A stretch of DNA of 43,658 nucleotides from Bacteroidetes bacterium CG18_big_fil_WC_8_21_14_2_50_41_14 (GTDB lineage: Bacteria; Bacteroidota; Bacteroidia; Bacteroidales; F082): positions 1,127 through 44,784 of the forward strand of contig PCUL01000366.1 in assembly GCA_002771745.1 (NCBI GenBank), read 5' to 3'. The notes below the pieces were generated by a model that searched no databases, was not told where the DNA came from, and worked only from the letters and a program-made list of their open reading frames with translations. A program made the translations under genes and the position numbers. Of this stretch, positions 20,066-43,434 are shown piece after piece. The first letter of the stretch is position 1, and each line of letters starts with the position of its first letter.

Positions 20066-20419
20066 ACTGAAAAATACACGGGTAGCCAACACGTGTTATG
20101 CACAAGGCTAAGTACAACCGTAAAATGATAGACCAACCATGATGCATCAATATAAAGCCACATTGGATATAATAGGAATAAACCCTTATAAAGAATCCGC
20201 TACTTTTGCAAAAATTATCCGTGAATGCGTATTTAGCTCGCCTGCCTGAAAGTCAGGTTCATTATCATGTTTATAACATTGGAGAGTAGTTGGTTTTGCA
20301 ATAATCTGTTCGCGTCAGCGTTTGCGTCATCTAATGGTGACAAAACCCGTCTCCCCATAGTATCATTCATATAACGACCATGCTTTTTTAAAAACCGACA
20401 CAATGGATCAAATAGTTTG
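20066..20419. other. Intergenic region before the small Cys/His protein gene
   Basis: About 350 bases without a gene. A -7-like box TACTTTTG occurs at 20201-20208 but without a clear -33, and it lies more than 200 bases from the next start. AACACGTGTT near 20089 is a short palindrome. Nothing else is convincing. Confidence 0.35.
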
Positions 20420-23163: not shown

Positions 23164-26064
23164 CTAATAAGCTATCAGTTTCACGGTACTCATACCCTGT
23201 GCACCCCTGGCTACTACAAAATACATTCCGGTGCTTAATCCCAGATCAGGAATAATGACGGTAGCAGATTTTTTATCCACCCGGGTTTGATAAACCACTT
23301 GCCCATACTGATTCAGAAGTTGAATTTGTGTGTATGGAGAATCTCCTATCATGACCTGAAGCGATCCGTTGGTGGGATTGGGGTATACCTTGATGGCATT
23401 GCTGTTGATTTCATCAACACTGAGGTATTGGCTAACGGCAATGTTATCAATAAACAAAGGGTTTCCCAGATCACTGAACGATTCAAAAGCCAGTTTTACA
23501 TCTGAGTTGCCGGCCCAGGCAGTTAAATCCACGTTGACACATTGCGCACCCCAACCAGAAATACACCAGTCGTCAGCCGTTTCAGGCCAAAAACCAGAAG
23601 TTAGTTCATGAGTTGCAAAATTCCCTGTACCATCTTCTCCGCCTGCAAATATTCTGGTCCACGAGTTGCCGCAATCTGGCGAAATATAAACGATCAAAGA
23701 ATCGTATAATCGGTTGTTGCGTTGTGCGTAAGCATATTGAAACTCGAGTGAGGCACTCGACAATCCCGATAGATTGAACGCGGGTGAAATCAGCCGGTCA
23801 CGTTCACCTTCCGGTTTGTCGCGCAACAAAATACCCGCTGCCCTGTTTCCTGGTGTCGTTCCACCGATTTGCTTAATTTCCCAGGTAAACTCACTGGTCG
23901 ACTTTTCAACAGTCCAGTTGTTTTGAGCAAGTCCGTCTTCAAATGTTTCAATAAAATAGGGTGCCATTCCCCCGGCAGTAAACAATTCGGGCTTTTCGAG
24001 TGAAGAAGAACCATTCAGGTTGGTGGCAGTCAGGGTAATAGAGTAAGCTCCGGGCTGATCGAATACTACCTCAGGATTTTGACTTGAGGATCCGGTACCA
24101 TTTACAAAAGTAACCGTTGAAGGATTAAACTCCCAATTCCACTGCCGTGGGAGATATTGTGTTAAATCGGTGATTGAAATGGTATCTGAAGTACAGCCAT
24201 CTATTGCACTGATTTCAAAGTCTACTTCAGGTAAAATGGTTGAGCTGGTGGTGATGTAGGCTTCCTTAACCACGGTATTACTTCCAATATCATTGGTTGC
24301 AGTCAATTCAACGGTAAAACTCCCTTCAGTAGCGTAAAGTATGTTTTCCGGGTTTCTTTCGGTGGAGGCGTCAGGCTGACCACCACTAAAAGTCCATGCC
24401 CATTCGGTTGGAAGGTTCAGGCTTTGATCGAAAAAGTTAACTGTTTCCCCTACCGGGATCAATACATTGTCGGCAATAAAATCAGGGGCAGGAGCCTGAG
24501 CGAAATTAACAGCTGTAATTTGAGTCCGCCAGTTCCAACCACCATTGGAATACTGTTGAGTATACCAAAATGTCAACCCGTCTGCCGGGTCAACGGTCAT
24601 AGCTGAATAGTCGCCCCAGCGATTTATACCGGTCTGCGATTTGGTTCCTTCTTTAATGCTGATTTCATCAATGTCCAGCACACCAAGTCCCATGGGTGCT
24701 CCGGCAGATTGGCCCGCAATGCGGATAGAGGGAAACAGAGTGGAAGACGAAACAGAATATCCAATGGCAATGTCGCCCAGGTCGTTCATGGCTATACTCC
24801 CCATCCACCTCGAGGCACCATCTGTAGGAGCAAAAGTTCCTTGCTGATAGAGTTCCCAATCGGCATCATATTTTCTTAATTCATACCAGCGAACACCAGC
24901 TTGACCACTTCCGGTGGCATTAACAGTATGATTGGTCAGCATAACTTCATAATCGCCGAAATTGCGGTATTGCAAACGGTACATCAATCTGTCGGCCAGG
25001 TCATCCAGTTTTTGGGAGGTTCCTGGTTGCGAAATATTGATGTTATTGCTCGAATAGGGATCAACAGGAATATAGCCAAGATAATCAACAGTGGTGGTGT
25101 TCACATTGTTCCAGTCAACGGTTGCCGACCACATCTTTAGCGAAGCGCCTGCAATCGACACAAAGTAACAAGGAGCTCCTGTGGGAGGTTGCATTGATCC
25201 ATCTGCGTCAGAAGGAAGCAGGCTTCCGTTGCTAGTGCCCATTTCAAAAAATAACATTTGAGCATCAGGATCCCCTATCAACATTGCATCCCGATCGAGG
25301 ATGCTAATGCCTGCTCCGGCCCAGTTACCACTATCAAACTGGTTGCTGGTAAAATAATAACCATCAGGCCAAATGCCAAACTTGGGATAGTCGGGCATGT
25401 TGTCAAATTGAAACGCGTAACGATACCAGGCACCCAGCGGGTCGCCGGTTTCAGAAACAGCTACCAATTCATAGAAAGGACCATTTGGGTAATTGGGAAG
25501 TGAAAATTGAGTGGCAATCCACCTGTCGGAATATTCATCGTATAACACCACCGGGTCGCCATCATTGGTGTTCGACCACGGACCCGGGAAACCACTCCAA
25601 AGGGTAATATTATCCGCCGGGCCATAAGTCTTAACCCCGGATTTGTTGTAAATGGCGAAGCCGTTGTTAACCATTTGGAAAAATTCGTTTGGTCCAACAT
25701 CCCCATCAGTATCAGGAGGAGCAACACCATAAATATTGGTAATGCCGGCGACATTGACATCAATTACTGCATTTGCACTCATTGGGTTTCCTTGTTGTTT
25801 CTGCAAGGCAGGGTCTTCTCCTTTTACCCAGGAAGCCTTCTGGTTGAATTTGCCGAAATCGAATATGTTGGGGATTTTTTTGTCCTTCCAAGTGCGCTCA
25901 ATTTGGCCGAGTGGAATTGGTTGAACATCGCGCAAAGCCGGTGACTTATCGAAATAAGCGGCTTTAGCAATTTTTGTTGGATGAATGCTTTGACCAAACA
26001 TACCCGTCATCGGAATGAAAAGAAGCAAGGTGCAAATTAAAAATGTGGTAATAACTTTTTTCAT
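23164..26064 (-). CDS. Large secreted protein with PKD repeats and T9SS type A sorting domain (paralogue 1)
   Basis: The protein has 966 residues. The signal peptide MKKVITTFLICTLLLFIPMTG is followed by a ~450-residue domain of unknown function (GVAPPDTDGDVGPNEFFQMV, DGDPVVLYDEYSDRWIATQF, DYPKFGIWPDGYYF), which may be a propeller. Two PKD domains come next (about 515-695, with FFDQSLNLPTEWAWTFSGG and LTQYLPRQWNWEF), then a choice-of-anchor-J-like domain (about 700-865, with TPGNRAAGILL and NPLFIDNIAV). The C-terminal ~75 residues are a Por/T9SS type A signal (VYPNPTNGSLQV, TGMYFVVARG). Secretion to the cell surface by the type IX system is expected. ATG at 26064 was chosen to match the signal peptide. 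Confidence 0.9.
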   Translation of the reverse strand: MKKVITTFLICTLLLFIPMTGMFGQSIHPTKIAKAAYFDKSPALRDVQPIPLGQIERTWKDKKIPNIFDFGKFNQKASWVKGEDPALQKQQGNPMSANAVIDVNVAGITNIYGVAPPDTDGDVGPNEFFQMVNNGFAIYNKSGVKTYGPADNITLWSGFPGPWSNTNDGDPVVLYDEYSDRWIATQFSLPNYPNGPFYELVAVSETGDPLGAWYRYAFQFDNMPDYPKFGIWPDGYYFTSNQFDSGNWAGAGISILDRDAMLIGDPDAQMLFFEMGTSNGSLLPSDADGSMQPPTGAPCYFVSIAGASLKMWSATVDWNNVNTTTVDYLGYIPVDPYSSNNINISQPGTSQKLDDLADRLMYRLQYRNFGDYEVMLTNHTVNATGSGQAGVRWYELRKYDADWELYQQGTFAPTDGASRWMGSIAMNDLGDIAIGYSVSSSTLFPSIRIAGQSAGAPMGLGVLDIDEISIKEGTKSQTGINRWGDYSAMTVDPADGLTFWYTQQYSNGGWNWRTQITAVNFAQAPAPDFIADNVLIPVGETVNFFDQSLNLPTEWAWTFSGGQPDASTERNPENILYATEGSFTVELTATNDIGSNTVVKEAYITTSSTILPEVDFEISAIDGCTSDTISITDLTQYLPRQWNWEFNPSTVTFVNGTGSSSQNPEVVFDQPGAYSITLTATNLNGSSSLEKPELFTAGGMAPYFIETFEDGLAQNNWTVEKSTSEFTWEIKQIGGTTPGNRAAGILLRDKPEGERDRLISPAFNLSGLSSASLEFQYAYAQRNNRLYDSLIVYISPDCGNSWTRIFAGGEDGTGNFATHELTSGFWPETADDWCISGWGAQCVNVDLTAWAGNSDVKLAFESFSDLGNPLFIDNIAVSQYLSVDEINSNAIKVYPNPTNGSLQVMIGDSPYTQIQLLNQYGQVVYQTRVDKKSATVIIPDLGLSTGMYFVVARGAQGMSTVKLIAY

Positions 26065-26120
26065 GATTTTGATCCTGTTAATAATATAAGACACATTTAT
26101 TCAATTGGATAAATGAGGTG

Positions 26121-26240: not shown

Positions 26241-29165
26241 TTAGTAAATAATCAACTTAAGTGTTTCACTGTTGGCCTGTCCAATTCCTTTTAAAAAGTA
26301 AATTCCTGGTTGCCAGGTAATTTCACGGTTCACCACCCATGTTTCAGTGTTTGCAGGTACCGGTATTTCTTTTACAATTTGCCCCAGGTTGTTCATCACC
26401 TGAATTTTATCGAATTGATGACCTTCCGGCAGAGAAACATGGAAATTTCCATCGGACGGATTGGGGTAAACCCTCATTTTGCTTAATCCCAACGAGTTTC
26501 CGGGTATTCCAACCAGGCTGCTTACAGCAATATTGTCGATAAATATAGGATGACCTGCAAAACTAAAGGTTTCGAATCGAATACGTACCTGGTCGTTTCC
26601 GGCAAATGCCGACAAATCAAGGGTAATACAACTTGCTCCCCATCCTTCCAGACACCAGTCAGAAGCCACCGCCGGCCACCAATCATCGGTGGTTAATTCG
26701 TGCGTGGCAAAATTTCCGGTTCCATTTTCGGCATTGGCATAAATGCGGTTCCATGTAGTGCCACAATCGGCAGAAACCGAAACGATCAATGAGTCGCCTG
26801 CCTCGGCATAGTATTGAGCATAGGCATATTGAAACTCTAGTGAAGGAGTAGAGGTATTGGCTAAATTAAAAGGTGGCGAGATTAAAAAGTCGCGCTGCCC
26901 AATGGCGAAATATTCTCTGAAATTAATGCCCACAGAATGATTTCCCGGTGTAGTGCCTTCGGTTTCAAACACTTCCCAGGTAACGCCATCGTCTGGGTTT
27001 TCGATGGCCCATTCGTTGGCTTTCACACCATCTGTCTCAAAATCTTCCAGAAAATAAGGAGTGTTCCCTCCCGCTTTAATCATGTCGTCCTTTGTAGTGG
27101 TTGAGCTGCCATTGAGGTTGTTAGCGGTAAGCGTTACCTGATAATCGCCGGATAAATTAAATACGACTTCCGGATTTTGACTGTTGGCGCTGGTTCCATT
27201 CACATAGGTAATATCTGTAGGGACAAATTCCCAACTCCACTGATTGGGACTGTATTGCGTTAAGTCAGTAAATTGTACCGACTCGCCTAAACAAATGGCC
27301 TTTTTATCGGCAACAAAGTCTACCAGTGGCAATATGGTTGCGCTCACCGTTATGAATGATTCTTTGGTAATGCTATCGATACCGATGGCATTGTAAGCCA
27401 CGAGCTTAACGGGATAAACACCTTCGGTATTGTATTGAATGTTTTGGGGGGTTTCTTCAGTAGAGTTTGAAGGAATACCCCCATCAAAGGTCCAGTTCCA
27501 ATGGGTTGGGATACCTTCGGTGAGGTCGGTAAAGTTAACCGTTTCTCCAACGGGAATCAGGGTTTCATCCGACTCGAAATCACATACGGGTTGAGCTGCA
27601 AACGAAACACTTGCAATTTGGGTCTTCCATCCCCAGCCACCGTTTGAATATTCAGTGGTGTACCAAAATGAATTTCCATCCGTAGGATCAATCGACATCA
27701 TGGAATAATCGCCCCACCTGTCTACACCTGATTGAGATTTGGTACCGTCAAAAATAGACACCTCGTCAATATCCAGTATACCCAATCCGGCAGGAGCGCC
27801 GGAAGATTGGCCCGCGATGCGAATGGAGGGATAAGTAGTAGCACTCGACACGGAATATCCAACGGCGATATCGCCACCCTGGTTCATGGCCACCGATGCC
27901 ATCCACCGATTTTCACCATCGGCAGGGGCAAAGGTTCCTTGTTGGTAAATTGACCAGCCACTGCCATAGTTGCGTAATTCGTACCATCTTACTCCGGCCT
28001 TCCCATTTCCGGCATTCACGGTGTGATTGGTCACCATCACCTGATAATCGCCAAAATTGCGGTACTGCAACCGATACATCAGTCTTCCGGCCAAAGTGCT
28101 CAACGACTGGCTCGTACCTGGTTGCTGTATATTAAGTCCATTGGTCGAAAACGGCTGTGTTGGTAATGTATTCACCTGTAGAATAAAAGAATTGGTGGTG
28201 TTAACCCAATCAACATCTACCTCGTAAACACGTAGTACATTGTTTCCCATGTTAACCATGTAGGAGGGTGATCCTTCGGGAGGAAGCATCTCACCATCGG
28301 CATCAGCCGGTAAAAAACTGCTGTGGCTCGACCAGTTAGTGCCGATTACAAAAAAGATCATTTGTGCATCAGGATCGCCTGCCAGCATGGCATCGCGATC
28401 TAAGATGCTGATACCACCTCCTGAAAACCCGCCATTGCTAAATAAATTGGTGGTAAAATAGTAACCATCGGGCCAAACACCAAATTTTGGATAGTCGGGC
28501 ATGGCATCAAACTCAAAAGCATAACGATACCAGGCACCCAATGGATCACCTGTTTCGGAAACAGCCACCAGTTCATAAAACGGTCCGGATGGATAATTTG
28601 GAAGTGAAAATTGCGTGGCAATCCATCGGTCGCTGTATTCATCATACAATACAATCGGGTCTCCATCATTTGTACTCGACCAGGGTCCGGGAAAACCATC
28701 CCACAACGTGATGTTATCGGCAGGGCCATACATGAGATTTCCCTGTTTGTCCCAAATGGCGAATCCGCTGTTTACCATCTGGAAATAATGGTCAGTTCCT
28801 ACATCGCCATCGGTGTCGGGGGGAGCCACCCCGTAAGTGTTGGTAATTCCGCTAAAGTTTTGATTTACCTGTGGTGTTCCCGAAAACCAACGTGTTTCAT
28901 CCTGTAAAACAGGGTCTGGTCCGGTAGGAAGTGGTGTGTTCTCCAGTTCATTTGTCAGGTGAAGCTTATTGGGAACCACTTTCTCTTTCCAAGCTCTTTT
29001 GCGAACACCCATGGGGATGGGATCCACTTGTCCCAAAGGTCTTGACATATCAAAATGTACTGCCTTAGTTACTTTTTCAGGATGAATTTCCTGACCGGGC
29101 AGATTTAAGGTAAAACCACCCAATGCCAGTAGCATCAGCATCATGGTTGTAAATTGTATTTTCAT
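26241..29165 (-). CDS. Large secreted protein with PKD repeats and T9SS type A sorting domain (paralogue 2)
   Basis: The protein has 974 residues and the same architecture as its neighbour at 23164-26064: signal peptide (MKIQFTTMMLMLLALGGFTL), the unknown N-terminal domain (GVAPPDTDGDVGTDHYFQMV, DGDPIVLYDEYSDRWIATQF, DYPKFGVWPDGYYFTTNLF), two PKD domains (VNFTDLTEGIPTHWNWTFDG, LTQYSPNQWSWEF), an anchor-J-like domain (TPGNHSVGINF, HPIFIDNIAVSS) and a T9SS type A tail (MRVYPNPSDGNFHVSLPEGH). Long identical stretches alternate with diverged ones, so the two arose by tandem duplication. Separate promoter boxes suggest independent expression. Confidence 0.9.
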   Translation of the reverse strand: MKIQFTTMMLMLLALGGFTLNLPGQEIHPEKVTKAVHFDMSRPLGQVDPIPMGVRKRAWKEKVVPNKLHLTNELENTPLPTGPDPVLQDETRWFSGTPQVNQNFSGITNTYGVAPPDTDGDVGTDHYFQMVNSGFAIWDKQGNLMYGPADNITLWDGFPGPWSSTNDGDPIVLYDEYSDRWIATQFSLPNYPSGPFYELVAVSETGDPLGAWYRYAFEFDAMPDYPKFGVWPDGYYFTTNLFSNGGFSGGGISILDRDAMLAGDPDAQMIFFVIGTNWSSHSSFLPADADGEMLPPEGSPSYMVNMGNNVLRVYEVDVDWVNTTNSFILQVNTLPTQPFSTNGLNIQQPGTSQSLSTLAGRLMYRLQYRNFGDYQVMVTNHTVNAGNGKAGVRWYELRNYGSGWSIYQQGTFAPADGENRWMASVAMNQGGDIAVGYSVSSATTYPSIRIAGQSSGAPAGLGILDIDEVSIFDGTKSQSGVDRWGDYSMMSIDPTDGNSFWYTTEYSNGGWGWKTQIASVSFAAQPVCDFESDETLIPVGETVNFTDLTEGIPTHWNWTFDGGIPSNSTEETPQNIQYNTEGVYPVKLVAYNAIGIDSITKESFITVSATILPLVDFVADKKAICLGESVQFTDLTQYSPNQWSWEFVPTDITYVNGTSANSQNPEVVFNLSGDYQVTLTANNLNGSSTTTKDDMIKAGGNTPYFLEDFETDGVKANEWAIENPDDGVTWEVFETEGTTPGNHSVGINFREYFAIGQRDFLISPPFNLANTSTPSLEFQYAYAQYYAEAGDSLIVSVSADCGTTWNRIYANAENGTGNFATHELTTDDWWPAVASDWCLEGWGASCITLDLSAFAGNDQVRIRFETFSFAGHPIFIDNIAVSSLVGIPGNSLGLSKMRVYPNPSDGNFHVSLPEGHQFDKIQVMNNLGQIVKEIPVPANTETWVVNREITWQPGIYFLKGIGQANSETLKLIIY

Positions 29166-33235: not shown

Positions 33236-33435
33236 TTGAGTATGGTTTTGCCACCTGGGACATTGACCGGATATTTGCCCGTCCTTTTGGATCGAACGTG
33301 GCATCACAGCTGGTGCTAAAAAGAAACGGAATGAAGCTGGAAGCCAAACTTGAGCACACAATTTGGAAAAATAACCGGTACGAGGATGAACTGATTTTCG
33401 CCATTCGACGTCACGATAAAAATGATCGTTCATGA
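33235..33435 (+). pseudogene. C-terminal fragment of a RimJ/RimL-type GNAT acetyltransferase
   Basis: The frame reads IEYGFATWDIDRIFARPFGS, then NVASQLVLKRNGMKLEAKLE, then HTIWKNNRYEDELIFAIRR and stops with TGA at 33433-33435. This is the distinctive last third of GNAT proteins: the NxASQ acetyl-CoA contact and the DELIFAIRR ending. The N-terminal two thirds are missing: the frame starts at the last base of the permease stop codon and a stop occurs just upstream. The remnant suggests a deletion between the permease and an old acetyltransferase gene. The DUF418 start ATG overlaps its stop by 4 bases. Confidence 0.8.
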
Positions 33436-34631
33436 TAAGCCCGACCATTGAAATAACAGCCGTAAAGCCTCAAAACAGGATTGCCTCTCTTGATATTCTT
33501 CGTGGTTTTGCCTTGTTGGGGATTGCAATGGTCAATATCCTGGGATTTAACGCTTCTTTTTTTGATTTTGGTGGGTTCTATAGCCAGCTACCCGACCCTT
33601 CACAAGTACACTTTTACGAAGTATTCATTGGTCTTTTCGCTGATAAATTCATTTTTTTGTTCAGCTTTTTATTTGGATATGGTATCTGGATTCAATACCA
33701 CCGCTTTACTGTCAAACAGGGTCACTTTTACGCATTCTTTATCAGGAGAATGGGTTTTCTGTTGTTGTTTGGAATGGCTCATGTTCTGTTTTTATGGGCA
33801 GGTGATATCCTTATACCCTATGCCATTGCCGGGATGATTGTGTTGGCGCTTCGCAAATTTTCAAATACCATGTTGCTCACCCTGGCCGCTTTCTTTTATT
33901 TCTTCGTTATTTTCTGGTTAACTATTTCGGTATGGATTCCACTTCCCAATGCTCTTTCATCCACTTGTCCGGAATGCATGGGTCAGGCAATGGATGTTTA
34001 TGCCCATGGCAACTATCTGTCTGTTCTCAATCTCCGGTTAATAGAGTACTCCGCCTTCATTCCGGTGAACCTGATTTACTATTTTCCAAAAATCATGGGC
34101 ATCACACTTTTTGGATTTGTTGCTTCAAGACTGCAATTGCACCTGAAATTCGAACAACAAAGAAGGGTGTGGTTATGGATAACCTGTGTAATTCTTGCAG
34201 TAGGTTGTTTGGCTTACCTGTATTATGAAAACCTGGTGATGACCATTATTTCACCTGAAAGTGAATTTCTTACTGCTGCGTATATGCTTGGATATGAAAT
34301 AATGAATCTTTTTTTAGCCTCAGGTTACATCCTTGCGATCTTACTCATGTGTTCATTCAAAGCGTCCCGATTAATCCTTAAACCTCTTAGCTATCCCGGC
34401 AGGATGTCGCTTACCAATTATTTAATGCAATCGATTCTCTTTGGATTTCTATTTTATGGATGGGGTCTGGGATTCTTTGGTTGGCAGAACCCGGCACAAA
34501 TTGAGATCTTCGCCATTTTAATATTTCTATTGGAAGTTTTAACGAGCTATTTTTGGTTGCAAAAATTTGAACAGGGGCCACTGGAACATCTTTGGAAAAA
34601 ACTTAGCTATCGCAATTTAAGCCGGAGGTAA
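33432..34631 (+). CDS. DUF418 family membrane protein
   Basis: The inner-membrane protein has 399 residues and about ten hydrophobic segments. It opens with RIASLDILRGFALLGIAMVN, the usual start of DUF418/YeiB-like proteins, and the C-terminal DUF418 domain contains LSYPGRMSLTNYLMQSILFG and GPLEHLWKKLSY. Function is unknown; some relatives resemble acyltransferases. The start at 33432 overlaps the GNAT fragment stop, so it was probably once translated together with it. It may be the last gene of the sigma-factor cluster. Confidence 0.92.
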   Translation: MISPTIEITAVKPQNRIASLDILRGFALLGIAMVNILGFNASFFDFGGFYSQLPDPSQVHFYEVFIGLFADKFIFLFSFLFGYGIWIQYHRFTVKQGHFYAFFIRRMGFLLLFGMAHVLFLWAGDILIPYAIAGMIVLALRKFSNTMLLTLAAFFYFFVIFWLTISVWIPLPNALSSTCPECMGQAMDVYAHGNYLSVLNLRLIEYSAFIPVNLIYYFPKIMGITLFGFVASRLQLHLKFEQQRRVWLWITCVILAVGCLAYLYYENLVMTIISPESEFLTAAYMLGYEIMNLFLASGYILAILLMCSFKASRLILKPLSYPGRMSLTNYLMQSILFGFLFYGWGLGFFGWQNPAQIEIFAILIFLLEVLTSYFWLQKFEQGPLEHLWKKLSYRNLSRR

Positions 34632-35314: not shown

Positions 35315-35789
35315 CCTCCATCGCGTTCGCTGCAACGGACCTGTCTGCCGACAAGACATTTGATACCTCTATGGCTCTGTCTTTGGGCAGTTCAATGTTT
35401 GAAATCGGTAGCTTTCTTGAGAACTGGAAATAAAGTTAAGCCAGATAACCAGAAAGCTGAATACTGTTCGAACTACTAAAGAGCAAGAAAAATAACGATC
35501 CCGACATTTAAGAGTCTGTCTTTGAGGTTAAAGCTTTTAGATAGGTAAATTGTCTTGATTGTGCCAATGGATGCAAAATCCTCTGCCTCATATCACCGAC
35601 AATAATGTTCAGAATAACCATCGAAAACGGTATAGACTATTCAAGGGGGAAATAAATTGTTTCTCAACTGTTAGCCAGCACAAATGAATTTTTTAATTGA
35701 ATTTTAGGTTCAATGTTAATAAATATTCCCATCTGAAAGCAGCTGTTTTGATGATTTTAAGTATCTTTATTTTTTAGACAAAAAGCTTA
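35315..35789. other. Intergenic region left of the restriction-modification island
   Basis: About 475 bases without a convincing gene. Short open frames ending near 35439 and 35655 (the latter rich in Cys) look like debris and match no family I know. TGTCTGCCGACAAGACA near 35343 resembles parts of common intergenic repeats. Confidence 0.35.
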
Positions 35790-36870
35790 ATGGCTACAAA
35801 AGAACAAATAAAAAATACCGGGGCGACATTCACTCCAACTGAGCTATCATTCTTTTTAGCTAATCGGCTTGCTTTTTATGTTCAAGCTTCTAATCAAAAT
35901 ATACTTGAGGTATTAGATCCAGCTTGTGGTGAAGGCGAATTACTTGTATCAATGGGAAATAAATTGACTGAAAATGGTTTTAACTTTTCGCTTTCAGGTT
36001 ATGATGCAAATGCTCAATATTTAAAATATGCCAAAGAAAGGATGCTTGAGCTTGGAGTAGGCAAATCAGACTTTGTTCATGCCGATTTTTTGCAAGCAAT
36101 AGATATAACACCTTCACAAGGGACTTTGGATTTTTTTCAAGAAGAAAAATCAGCCGTAAATGGACGTTATGATATTGTAATTGCTAACCCACCTTATGTC
36201 AGAACGCAAATACTTGGAACAGAGCAGGCACAAGCACTTGCAAAAAAATTTAATTTGAAAGGAAGAGTTGACTTATATTATCCGTTCTTGATTACAATGA
36301 CAGAAAGCCTTAAAATTGGCGGCTTACTTGGAGTCATAACATCCAATCGTTATTTATCAACAAAAAGTGGGGCAAGCGTAAGGAAATTTCTATCTGAAAA
36401 TTATGAGATATTGGAATTGATAGATTTGGGAGATACTAAAATATTTGATGCTGCAGTTTTGCCGGCTATTTTTATTGGGAGAAAAAACAAACAAAAAATT
36501 CCATCACCTGCTAAATTTATCAAAATCTATGAAGAGCTAAATGGTTACAAGGGAGATCTAACTCCGGCCAGTAGCATATATGATATTCTTGATAATAAAA
36601 AAATGGGTTATTTCACAACTGGATCAAAACGATATAAAAAATCCGCAGGGGCATAAGATATTCAATTTCATCTTCAGCATCATGGGAAATGCTGTCAGCT
36701 ATTGAATCAGACTGGGTTTCTAAAATTGATACCTCTTCAAAAAACAGGGTTGGAGATTTTTTTAATGTAAGAGTAGGTATAAAATCTACTGCGGACAAGA
36801 TTTTTATTAGTGATAAATGGGAAGATTTAGGAGATGAAAAACCTGAAAACGAGTTATTAAAACCTTCAAT
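35790..36870 (+). pseudogene. Type II N6-adenine DNA methyltransferase, frameshifted and C-terminally truncated
   Basis: The first 288 residues (to the stop at 36654-36656) hold the SAM motif I LDPACGEGELL (about 42-52) and the catalytic motif IV IANPPYVRTQ (NPPY 133-136), in the order of N6-adenine enzymes with a C-terminal target-recognition domain. Homology then continues in another frame from about 36650: ESDWVSKIDTSSKNRVGDFF, NVRVGIKSTADKIFISDKWE, PENELLKPSI. One base missing at the GGGG run 36648-36651 explains the shift. After about 36870 the sequence becomes the antisense of the endonuclease, so the last ~150 residues expected of the family are gone. The protein is probably inactive or has lost sequence recognition. 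Confidence 0.8.
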
Positions 36871-37806
36871 TATCTCTGTTTTGGGATTAGTTAGTGCTAT
36901 TAGGTATCTTACATCAAAAGTTGTCAGATTCAAAGATTCAATTACAATTTCTTCTCTTTCCGGTGAGAATCTGCCTAAATCAACAGTTTGTGTATCCTGA
37001 ACTTTGACTTCTAAAAGTTGATTTTTAATATCTGGGAACGCCCCATATAATAAATCCTTTTCTTTTACATCGTATCCCAGCAGTTCAAGAACTTTCTTTT
37101 CTAATGCCTGTCCTCGATTTTTTGTCGCCGCGGCATCAAGCCGTAAGCCTATTAACTCATTTGCAACCAATTTTCTTATTAAAGCAATAGAAAATAAATT
37201 CTTAATATCCGGCTCTGTAACCATCCCTGTGTTTGGAGGTAAATAATCATGCCGAATGTAATAGGATAACTTTTTTGAATCAGGGAATGAAAGTATTTTT
37301 TCTTCACTTTCCAGAATGCCCTTTCTGGCCTTGTTAGAAATTAGCAATTGTTGTTTTACCGTTGGTTTTCCAAATCTACCAAATTTTTGTTCAATATATT
37401 CAGGCGTTAGAATAATTATCGAAGCAACGACATTTTTTTGAATATCTATCCTAACAAAAACGAAACGTACATCCGTGCATTTAAGGCTCTCTCCTGATTC
37501 GTATTTAACTAAAAGTATTTGACTTGCAGGAAGCCTGTTCCAAACTTTAAGATTATATGAATCTCCACTTGTAACCATATAAGTGTCGATAAATTCTCTT
37601 GCTATTTTTGGCACTCCTTTAGCTTTTGGAGGTACAATTTCGAACTGTCCGACTACAGCTAACTCAGGAAGTGGATGCTTTTCTAAAACAGAAGCAATTA
37701 ACTTTCGCACTTTTGATCCGTCAGTCCGTGTCTTGCCAGTAAGTACAAAAGGCTTACCGATGATTTCCGAGAAATAATCGGCTAGTTTTTCAGGATGAGT
37801 CAGCAT
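36613..37806 (-). CDS. Type II restriction endonuclease, PD-(D/E)XK fold, with foreign C-terminal tail
   Basis: The frame has 397 residues. The nuclease core is at about 225-285: KKVLELLGYDVKEKDLLYGA, then FPDIKNQLLEVKVQD, giving PD (258-259) and ExK (E266, K268). RYLIALTNPKTEIIEG (about 300-315) looks like the start of the normal C-terminal part. From about residue 316 on, the protein is the reverse reading of methyltransferase DNA, so the native end is lost and about 80 foreign residues are attached. The controller gene precedes it by 22 bases in the same direction. Which site it cut is unknown. With the methyltransferase broken, an active enzyme would be toxic, so it is presumably inactive or silent. 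Confidence 0.72.
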   Translation of the reverse strand: MLTHPEKLADYFSEIIGKPFVLTGKTRTDGSKVRKLIASVLEKHPLPELAVVGQFEIVPPKAKGVPKIAREFIDTYMVTSGDSYNLKVWNRLPASQILLVKYESGESLKCTDVRFVFVRIDIQKNVVASIIILTPEYIEQKFGRFGKPTVKQQLLISNKARKGILESEEKILSFPDSKKLSYYIRHDYLPPNTGMVTEPDIKNLFSIALIRKLVANELIGLRLDAAATKNRGQALEKKVLELLGYDVKEKDLLYGAFPDIKNQLLEVKVQDTQTVDLGRFSPEREEIVIESLNLTTFDVRYLIALTNPKTEIIEGFNNSFSGFSSPKSSHLSLIKILSAVDFIPTLTLKKSPTLFFEEVSILETQSDSIADSISHDAEDEIEYLMPLRIFYIVLIQL

Positions 37807-37828
37807 ATTAACTGACTTTGGCGGGGTT

Positions 37829-38080
37829 CTAAATTCCTTGTTCCTTATTCATGTTTAGCAAATCAGATGTGCTAATATTTAATGCTTTAGCTATCTTCCT
37901 AAGATTAAGTGCAGAAATATTCCTCTCTCCTCTTTCAACCGAGCCAATATATGTTCTGTCAAGATTACAAGCAAAAGCAAATTTCTCTTGCGATAAATCT
38001 GCTTTTATACGAAGCTCTCGTATTCTGTTACCGATTCGCTCAAGAAAGTTTTTTTCTTCCTTTGTATAATCAACACCCAT
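37829..38080 (-). CDS. Restriction-modification controller (C) protein, XRE family
   Basis: The protein has 83 residues and one HTH_3 domain: IGNRIRELRIKADLSQEKFA, then CNLDRTYIGSVERGERNISA and LNLRKIAKALNISTSDLLNM. Length, sequence style and position directly before an endonuclease gene fit the C proteins of type II systems (such as those of PvuII and Esp1396I). They bind C-boxes before their own gene and delay endonuclease synthesis until the methyltransferase has acted. A matching C-box lies 43 bases upstream. The gene itself appears intact. Confidence 0.9.
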   Translation of the reverse strand: MGVDYTKEEKNFLERIGNRIRELRIKADLSQEKFAFACNLDRTYIGSVERGERNISALNLRKIAKALNISTSDLLNMNKEQGI

Positions 38081-38122
38081 GTTAAGAAATTTTGTACAAA
38101 GGTGTCGAATAGATGTAAATAC

Positions 38123-38140
38123 GTCTACGGACTATAAGTA
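38123..38140 (-). promoter_or_regulatory. C-box operator of the controller gene
   Basis: On the minus strand TACTTATAGTCCGTAGAC closely resembles the known C-box words ACTTATAGTC and GTCCGTxGAC. A weaker second half-site (GACGTATTTACATCT) follows towards the start codon. Dimers of the C protein would bind here to activate, then repress, the C-R transcript. Confidence 0.8.
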
Positions 38141-38251
38141 TCAAATATAATAGTTTAAGAAAGTGTTAATATGTCTTGTTAAACTTCTGTCAAGTTTTGG
38201 TTTTAACTGTAAGCCAAAACTGATAAAGTCCAAGAAAGAGGGAACATTTAA

Positions 38252-38482
38252 ATTAAAAACTTCCAATTCACTGTTCCAGGAAAATTTCAAAAGAAATTGA
38301 ATAAGACCCCGGCTCTGAAAACTGCTTTTGATGAATTGACATCAGGAAGGTAACTTGTATACCTTTTGTATTTTTATCAACCTAAACAACCAAAAACCAG
38401 GGAGTCGAGGGTTGAAAAATCCATACCGAAAATACTGAGCGAGAAGAATTATATGATTATTGAAAAACTTGTAAAACAATGA
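38252..38482 (+). pseudogene. Broken YdeI/OmpD-associated-family gene, C-terminal part
   Basis: The frame reads NFQFTVPGKFQKKLNKTPAL, KTAFDELTSGR, then TAA (38351-38353), then continues in the same frame LVYLLYFYQPKQPKTRESRV, EKSIPKILSEKNYM to TGA at 38480-38482. The core words (FTVP, AFxxLTxGRQ, YILYFxxPKQxKTRESRxEK) are those of the YdeI/OmpD-associated family. The stop replaces the usual Gln after GR, consistent with a CAA/CAG to TAA/TAG change. The N-terminal domain is missing, and a stop precedes the fragment at 38249. The gene was probably disrupted when the restriction-modification island arrived or decayed. Confidence 0.75.
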
Positions 38483-38620
38483 ATTCCTACCCCTTACAAC
38501 CAGGATAGGCAAAGTTGGCGTGCAATGGTTTACTAAAATTTAAACTATTTAATCATGTGTGTCCGGAATAAACAATACGGTAAAACTCCATCTTCTTCTA
38601 TGAATCTGATTCGCCCCTGT

Positions 38621-38995
38621 CTACCCCAAACCAGGCAATTTTCCTGAATGAGAAGCTCCCAAAGCAATCATGGCCTTCTCCTTGATTTCAGGAGTCAGAT
38701 AGCTCGAAACAGTGCTTACAGCAAAGCTTAAAAACGCGATGTCATCAGTAAAACCCAGTACGGGAATGATGTCTGCCAACAGATCGGCGGGCAGGATAAA
38801 ATAACCCAAAGCAGCTACCATTACCATCTTGTTTCTGGCGGGTACATTTTTATCCTTTAGCAAATAAAACAGAATGAGGGCATCATATACCAACCATGCG
38901 CCAGCCTTTCCTGCAACATACCTGATTTTACCCTTCAGGTCATGTTCATTAAAATAAGCTGAATACTTTTTAAACGTTGATGGTATCGGTATCAT
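38621..38995 (-). CDS. YkvA/DUF1232 family membrane protein
   Basis: The protein has 124 residues. The DUF1232 core is at about 55-95: VPARNKMVMVAALGYFILPA, DLLADIIPVLGFTDDIAFLS, with the conserved YxxxPxDxxPD-like spacing (here YFILPADLLADIIPV). Two hydrophobic stretches suggest a small membrane protein. Function is unknown. The region 38483-38620 just downstream shows no gene. Confidence 0.88.
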   Translation of the reverse strand: MIPIPSTFKKYSAYFNEHDLKGKIRYVAGKAGAWLVYDALILFYLLKDKNVPARNKMVMVAALGYFILPADLLADIIPVLGFTDDIAFLSFAVSTVSSYLTPEIKEKAMIALGASHSGKLPGLG

Positions 38996-39029: not shown

Positions 39030-39488
39030 TCATTTCTTCATTAATTGTTCCATCTCATGGTTTTCATTCGTATCCAATAGGGCATTCATGTCTTTAACAG
39101 ATTGCGGTTGAACTTCAAAAGCTGTCACCACATTGGTAATGGTCCTGATGTCACTCACAAGCTGCTTCACCCGATCAGGGTCGGTCATATTTTTTATAAG
39201 CAACAAATAATCAGCCTCTTTCACTGTAGCCAATAACGTACCTCCGGTGTGTTTATTGCTTATCAGGTAGTAATTTGTATGCAATTGGGCATCATGAAAA
39301 CAGAACCAGGAATAGGTGCACATTACATCACCTGTCCGGGCATAAGCGATGTCATCGTAATGAATCAAATCAATCCCCAAAACCTGATTTAGAAAAAAAG
39401 TAAACCGGTAGTCTTTGAGGCTACTTATAATCGCTATCACCCTGTACTCTTCCTGTGAAACGTAAGCAAGTGTATGTTTTCGGGGCAT
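39030..39488 (-). CDS. IPExxxVDY-like family protein
   Basis: The protein has 152 residues and no signal peptide. It lies directly after rnc, the position where Bacteroidota usually carry an IPExxxVDY protein. In that place the sequence has LLATVKEADYLLLIKNM, in which VKEADY aligns with the family motif but Ile-Pro-Glu is not conserved. The N-terminal part YRVIAIISSLKDYRFTFFLNQVL also fits. Function is unknown. ATG at 39488 (MPRKHTLAYV) is preferred to 39518. The pyruvate kinase gene that often follows is absent. Confidence 0.65.
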   Translation of the reverse strand: MPRKHTLAYVSQEEYRVIAIISSLKDYRFTFFLNQVLGIDLIHYDDIAYARTGDVMCTYSWFCFHDAQLHTNYYLISNKHTGGTLLATVKEADYLLLIKNMTDPDRVKQLVSDIRTITNVVTAFEVQPQSVKDMNALLDTNENHEMEQLMKK

Positions 39489-39582
39489 GGCATTGGCGTT
39501 TAACCCACAAAGGTACACAATTAGGCTTGTGAATATAATGGCTTAAAATAATTTAATGAAGTACCTGTTTTGAACAGAAAGG

Positions 39583-42903: not shown

Positions 42904-43359
42904 CTAATTCCTCTTCATCTGAAACTCGATGGGTTTGTTACCCCGACTGTTCTCTTTCCTGAATACAAACAAAGAATCACCTTCCCATTCAAAAACAATC
43001 CGGTTGGGATAAGGCCGGTCCATGTTTTCAAACCGAAACAAATTCCCCCTGCTTTTATTTAACAAAAGCAATTGAGGGTGTAAATAGCCTTCACAATTCC
43101 CCAATTGTGCAAATACGGAATCATTGCGTTTAAAAATTACATATTGCTCAACGCAGGTGGTGTCGGCAACCAATAAGGTGTACAACCGCCCTTTCAAGGC
43201 AGAATCGCCAATGGATTTCCATTGCAGGTTTATAAGCACGTTACCGGCCGAAGACCATCTCCCTTCAAGGGTTTTCATCTGAAGAAAAGCCTCTTCCGAA
43301 TTGGGAACACACCCGAACAGGAGAAAAAAAATTAGAAGAATCAATAACCGCCGTACCAT
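42904..43359 (-). CDS. Small lipoprotein, unknown function
   Basis: The protein has 151 residues. MVRRLLILLIFFLLFGC is a lipoprotein signal with Cys17. The mature part (RWSSAGNVLINLQWKSIGD, SALKGRLYTLLVADTTCVEQ, NRIVFEWEGDSLFVFRKEN) is beta-rich and resembles small lipocalin-like or DUF6265-type lipoproteins, but I cannot name the family. ATG at 43359 matches the signal peptide; an earlier start at 43410 lies within the divergent promoter region. A -7-like TTACTTTG is at 43398-43391 on the minus strand. Confidence 0.72.
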   Translation of the reverse strand: MVRRLLILLIFFLLFGCVPNSEEAFLQMKTLEGRWSSAGNVLINLQWKSIGDSALKGRLYTLLVADTTCVEQYVIFKRNDSVFAQLGNCEGYLHPQLLLLNKSRGNLFRFENMDRPYPNRIVFEWEGDSLFVFRKENSRGNKPIEFQMKRN

Positions 43360-43434
43360 GCCAAATTTAAATAACCACAATTTACCGGACCAAAGTAACA
43401 AAAAACACACCCTCCTTAAACCATGATTTTAGCT

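Follow-up and report, generated by a model that had tools for sequence, protein, structure and literature searches.

A convergent BseCI-type restriction-modification island very probably inactivated recently by a deletion through both gene tails

There is little doubt that the 43,658-nucleotide stretch of Bacteroidales DNA analysed here (the window) carries a recently inactivated, C-controlled restriction-modification (R-M) island of the convergent BseCI type, in which one deletion of ~767 bp took the tails of both the methyltransferase gene (M) and the endonuclease gene (R), and two small lesions damaged what was left. A sequence-only reading of this DNA had proposed the deletion and a resulting chimeric endonuclease; it had overlooked the two small lesions, a 1-nt deletion in M and the loss of the R start codon. 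The features are as follows.

35424–38668, no strand: R-M island, presumably acquired (blastn against four congener stretches)
35790–36656, plus strand: 5' part of the M gene, an N6-adenine methyltransferase, open for 288 aa (Pfam, PADLOC)
36654–36655, plus strand: 1-nt deletion causing the M frameshift (alignment with seven relatives; the own-genome search splits M in two)
36657–36862, plus strand: residual M-homologous DNA in a shifted frame, to the equivalent of about residue 356 of 570
36862–36863, no strand: deletion junction (nucleotide alignment with seven relatives)
36613–37806, minus strand: mechanically called 397-aa open frame, with R homology to residue 315 and then 82 aa of antisense M
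36863–37845, minus strand: R-homologous DNA, reaching native residue 328 of 372, with PD-(D/E)xK kept (PADLOC PDLC03565, E=4.9e-17)
37829–38080, minus strand: controller (C) gene, HTH_3, 83 aa (Pfam HTH_3, E=6.4e-16; PADLOC Control_protein PDLC03665, E=8.3e-26)
38112–38142, minus strand: probable C-box operator, GATACTTATAGTCCGTAGACGTATTTACATC, upstream of C at a position conserved in relatives

The deletion and the smaller lesions

When the convergent unit was aligned with seven relatives, the window showed a single clean large gap, of 767 bp against L012–L015 and L038, 756 bp against L039 and 761 bp against L040. Plus-strand M homology and minus-strand R homology had been said to meet at about 36860–36875, and the alignment places the exact join at 36862|36863. 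Both native C-termini are indeed missing: M lacks ~214 of 570 residues (~1–356 are kept) and R lacks the C-terminal 44 of 372. The clean gap and the convergent arrangement of the pair in all 13 relatives examined bear out the proposal of one deletion in an originally convergent M-R pair. As read from the relatives' sequences, the ends of the deletion share at most ~1 nt; no N run lies at the junction, and the 24-mer spanning it is found a single time, on an assembled contig. A repeat-mediated deletion was rejected because the ends share so little and repeats inside the remaining island do not frame the junction. The deleted segment was also searched for ATCGAT, which could have caused a self-inflicted cut, and none was found in any of the seven relatives.

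The first frame of M matches Pfam Eco57I (E=1.7e-22) and N6_Mtase (E=5.3e-16) as well as the PADLOC profile PDLC03226 (E=1.2e-86), and it contains DPACGEGE and NPPY, which we take to be motifs I and IV. The sequence-only reading had followed M homology to PENELLKPSI; plus-strand homology does reach the junction, but not in one frame, as the M frame comprises 288 aa and is closed by a TAA at 36656. A single nucleotide has been lost at about 36654/36655, a position uncertain by 1–2 nt within a short A/T run, and this puts the stretch that ends in PENELLKPSI into a different frame. When the full L012 M was searched against the source genome, close matches were found only for residues 1–288 and 278–359, both in the island locus, and the remaining matches were weak (at most 35% identity); this search thus found no close copy of the missing M segment elsewhere in the assembly. 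The match to TaqI_C, the specificity domain, spans residues 399–512 in L012 and falls entirely inside the deleted part, and the complete domain is absent from the window M, whose homology ends at about residue 356. Because the specificity domain is gone and the frame is broken, M should not recognise DNA, and its activity has presumably been lost. The source genome holds four further methyltransferase-like loci. Its assembly (4.49 Mb) is fragmented into 466 contigs and 92.87% complete, and might for that reason fail to include a further M or an intact copy.

R is damaged at both ends. Its conserved start is ATG in ten of the ten relatives viewed (six together with L053, L054, L056 and L058; the count omits L040, L041 and L057), whereas the window has AGG at 37845–37843. 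The codons just before it are ATA and TGA, and the reading frame of C continues there. The end of the C protein is altered as well (LLNMNKEQGI in the window versus LLNIEE in L012). This change at the C/R overlap could have arisen in two ways: one nucleotide may have been deleted and others substituted, or a small duplication may have been accompanied by a small deletion. The lost R tail is as conserved as the retained part, since 23 of its 44 columns are invariant among the seven relatives, compared with 162 of 328 in the part that was kept. In the window, neither M nor R runs in one open frame from its conserved start to its conserved end. R is not expected to be translated from its native start or to fold, and we infer that its activity is lost. 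No Pfam or NCBIfam match was found for the window R and no Pfam match for the L012 R, and the own-genome search found no second R.

The decay looks recent. At columns otherwise invariant, private changes in the window number 0/109 for M and 6/161 for R. The same measure for R gave 1/156 for L014 and 3/158 for L038, which are near relatives, 20/175 for L015 and 26/181 for L039, which are more distant, and 0/155 for L012 and L013, which are near copies of each other. By these window counts, R may be slightly relaxed and M not at all. So few missense changes are compatible with a living locus too, though the R value of the window exceeds those of L014 and L038. Fourfold sites differ between the window and the relatives at 0.55–0.71, which is near saturation, and for this reason no dN/dS was computed.

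An assembly or sequencing artefact, with a locus that is really intact and a deletion and small indels that are errors, seems improbable. Such errors would fit a fragmented assembly, lesions clustered in one locus and conserved residues that are otherwise retained, and at two further methyltransferase-like loci the genome sequence does contain stretches of N, which stand for gaps or for bases that were withheld. However, the junction lacks both an N run and a repeat, the three lesions are separate and of different kinds, and window frames elsewhere largely agree with two congeners. For this comparison, 34 ORFs of the window, all lying outside the island, were set against the fetched stretches of G004 and G002; 15 of these ORFs aligned and 19, all before 20190, did not. 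No net frame-changing indel was seen in 13 of the 15 aligned ORFs; two of these 13 (23164–26094 and 26241–29165) carry many indels summing to a multiple of three, some of them from paralogue cross-matches. In the other two (39030–39518 and 42904–43410), a frame-changing indel occurs only close to the start, which was chosen mechanically, and within ~25 bases of it.

The frame that runs through the join

Much of what had been noted about the endonuclease frame is correct. It runs on through antisense M for 82 aa of its 397, close to the ~80 residues first estimated, and the catalytic PD...ExK residues are all present in the window protein (P258, D259, E266 and K268). It starts at an internal ATG, 13 codons past the conserved R start. 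The view that it encodes a meaningful chimeric endonuclease is not supported, because the read-through is expected from the join, the start is lost, the lost tail is conserved and the junction lies inside a predicted strand.

We made the same join in silico in the seven relatives, and 86, 86, 48, 73, 95, 50 and 112 aa were open in the same frame, whereas only 1–18 aa were open in the other two frames. The antisense frame of M is simply open around the junction region in the M family. Since the same join leaves 48–112 residues open in seven relatives, the 82-aa read-through needs no selection, and selection for a chimera was rejected in view of these joins.

Structure prediction was of modest quality. 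With nine sequences, AlphaFold2 gave the intact L012 R a mean pLDDT of 63 and a pTM of 0.48, and in this model the junction would fall within a predicted strand (E325–333). The window chimera, modelled with the same nine sequences, gave a mean pLDDT of 38, which means only that no fold was predictable. Foldseek returned no match at E<=0.001 for the intact L012 R model. The best fold likeness of this model was to HincII (Z 6.5, rmsd 4.4, 134 aligned residues), values in the range of chance matches.

A functional chimera is unlikely on these grounds, and the specific proposal that it works as an altered nuclease, tolerated through changed specificity or protection by another methyltransferase, is more improbable still than an artefact. 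The retained PD...ExK residues, the frame open through the join, and the retained C gene and C-box would suit a working nuclease. They are outweighed by the lost start, the strong conservation of the missing tail, the junction within the modelled strand, the failure to find another close M in the assembly and the equally open frames in the relatives; the lower pLDDT of the chimera points the same way, as weak evidence given that both models are modest. For annotators, the 397-aa 'endonuclease' and the 288-aa 'methyltransferase' frames are then to be taken as remnants, and a frame that stays open over a long run of antisense DNA is no evidence for a new chimeric gene.

Native layout, ancestry and recognition site

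Relatives of R were collected by a related-locus search (4 loci) and by genome searches, in which 3/99, 1/394, 5/392 and 1/394 genomes besides the source had R matches (the samples overlap, and G085 occurs twice). The 13 distinct relatives examined are L012 (Sphingobacterium wenxiniae), L013 (Paenimyroides aquimaris), L014 (Halpernia humi), L015 (a Saprospiraceae MAG), L038, L039, L040, L041, L053, L054, L056, L057 and L058. The N-terminal part of R is off the contig in L040, and the M start lies beyond the fetched stretch in L053, L054, L056, L057 and L058. In all 13, R is complete at its C-terminal end and the R and M genes converge with overlapping tails. Counting the stop codons, the overlap measures 14 bp in nine of them; L039 and L054 have 4 bp, L041 has 27 bp and L057 has 40 bp. 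The pattern is more than chance: in the seven relatives found first, which are 62–81% identical, similarity to R breaks off at residue 315–317 of the window protein without exception, and in two of the seven the antisense-M part of the window frame matches separately, further downstream. Full-length homologues ending at the same positions as the window genes were sought and not found, and a native overlap of M and R in the source lineage, with no deletion, is hardly conceivable when both tails are present in every relative examined.

L041 (from G475) is distant (R ~32–34% identical) and retains the convergent overlapping layout, which is therefore probably old in the R family. A stretch with the R-M unit and two neighbouring genes is 98.66% identical over 5597 bp between L012 (5586–11182) and L013 (5–5594); this suggests recent transfer, or else contamination, as the L013 contig is only 5856 bp long. 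Both of these neighbouring genes match PDC-M37A/PDC-M37B, a candidate defence pair. Plasmid records contained four distant matches (26.7–30.1% identity), and viral contigs contained eleven distant R relatives (27–38%), all outside the 13; phages gave no match, and the junction 24-mer was absent from viral contigs.

BseCI-type ancestry is seen in the pairing of an N6-adenine methyltransferase nearest M.BseCI with a convergent PD-(D/E)xK endonuclease of PDLC03565. The best solved relative of the intact L012 M is M.BseCI (PDB 7qw5–7qw8), matched over residues 6–565 with E=6.3e-158; unlike it, the window copy is frameshifted and lacks ~214 C-terminal residues. The window R matches the PADLOC type II endonuclease profile REase_II (PDLC03565) but lacks the start and the last 44 residues, and the first frame of M, as given above, matches PDLC03226. 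An HTH controller gene lies directly before R. The element at 38112–38142, taken here as a probable C-box from its conserved position, is found at the same place in L012, L013, L014 and L038, is weaker in L015 and does not occur in L039; we take it to resemble the Esp1396I operator.

The ancestral site of the window system would be expected to be ATCGAT, which is given as the site of M.BseCI (PMC5502580). We also counted this site in R plus M of six relatives, omitting L013 as a near copy of L012, and found 0 where a Markov estimate gives ~3.9. Site avoidance was rejected as proof of ATCGAT specificity, however, because 6 of 23 other palindromes of comparable composition likewise number 0 in the same six loci.

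Inactive chromosomal type II systems have been reported, and loss of a type II system can kill unless its sites remain protected (PMC5608340, PMC3874152); post-segregational killing by type II R-M systems is described in PMC3874152. R-M decay is already known in kind. The window differs from those cases in that one junction removed both tails, and a non-exhaustive search of the open-access literature, judged by titles and the beginnings of abstracts, found no described tail-to-tail loss of M and R by one junction. The source genome contains 1719 ATCGAT sites and the search of its assembly turned up no second close M, so that an active R would be expected to be lethal. Since R acting without M ought to kill the cell, R would have been lost before M or together with it.

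Gain of the island and a possible exit from addiction

The island is bordered by a DUF418 gene (33432–34631, plus strand) on one side and a DUF1232 gene (38621–38995, minus strand) on the other. Its identification as an R-M island agrees with an empty site in all four congeners (G001–G004), where both flanking genes are present and blastn found no match to island sequence in the four fetched stretches. Flanks of G002 and G004 are ~93–95% identical to the window by blastn up to 35423 and from 38669; 171 bp occupy the place of the island in G004, and the two flanking genes are ~0.7 kb apart in G001 and ~1.2 kb apart in G003. Absence from four congeners implies either arrival after the lineage split or loss from all four, and gain after the split would be the simpler reading.

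The proposed course is that a C-controlled convergent system of the M.BseCI kind would have inserted between the DUF418 and DUF1232 genes after the congeners split, and that one deletion of ~767 bp, with essentially repeat-free ends, would have taken the R and M tails together. M would additionally have lost one nucleotide and R its conserved start codon. A single deletion through both tails would satisfy, in one step, the requirement that R go before or with M; the loss of the R start could equally have preceded the deletion, and either order of lesions would fit. It is conceivable, though we hold it only tentatively, that tails which converge and overlap allow a single small deletion to disarm toxin (R) and antidote (M) of an addictive system alike, and that the locus records a recent one-step escape with the other lesions coming later. 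The locus is a concrete candidate for the exit of a lineage from R-M addiction without death, and it offers a clean case of a defence island gained and then lost between closely related species.

The island arms (35424–35789 and 38081–38668) look non-coding except for the DUF1232 end, and the own-genome search found no second copy of the right arm (38081–38668) in the source genome. The 3' end of the DUF1232 gene (38621–38668) is replaced by the island, and its last codons mismatch those of the congeners. Further away, positions 1–20189 lack any long match in the fetched G004 and G002 stretches, to which similarity begins only at 20190; this suggests that gene order is broken at about 20190 of the window. 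The ORFs at 23164–26094 and 26241–29165 cross-match each other's congener counterparts at 63–76% and are tandem paralogues.
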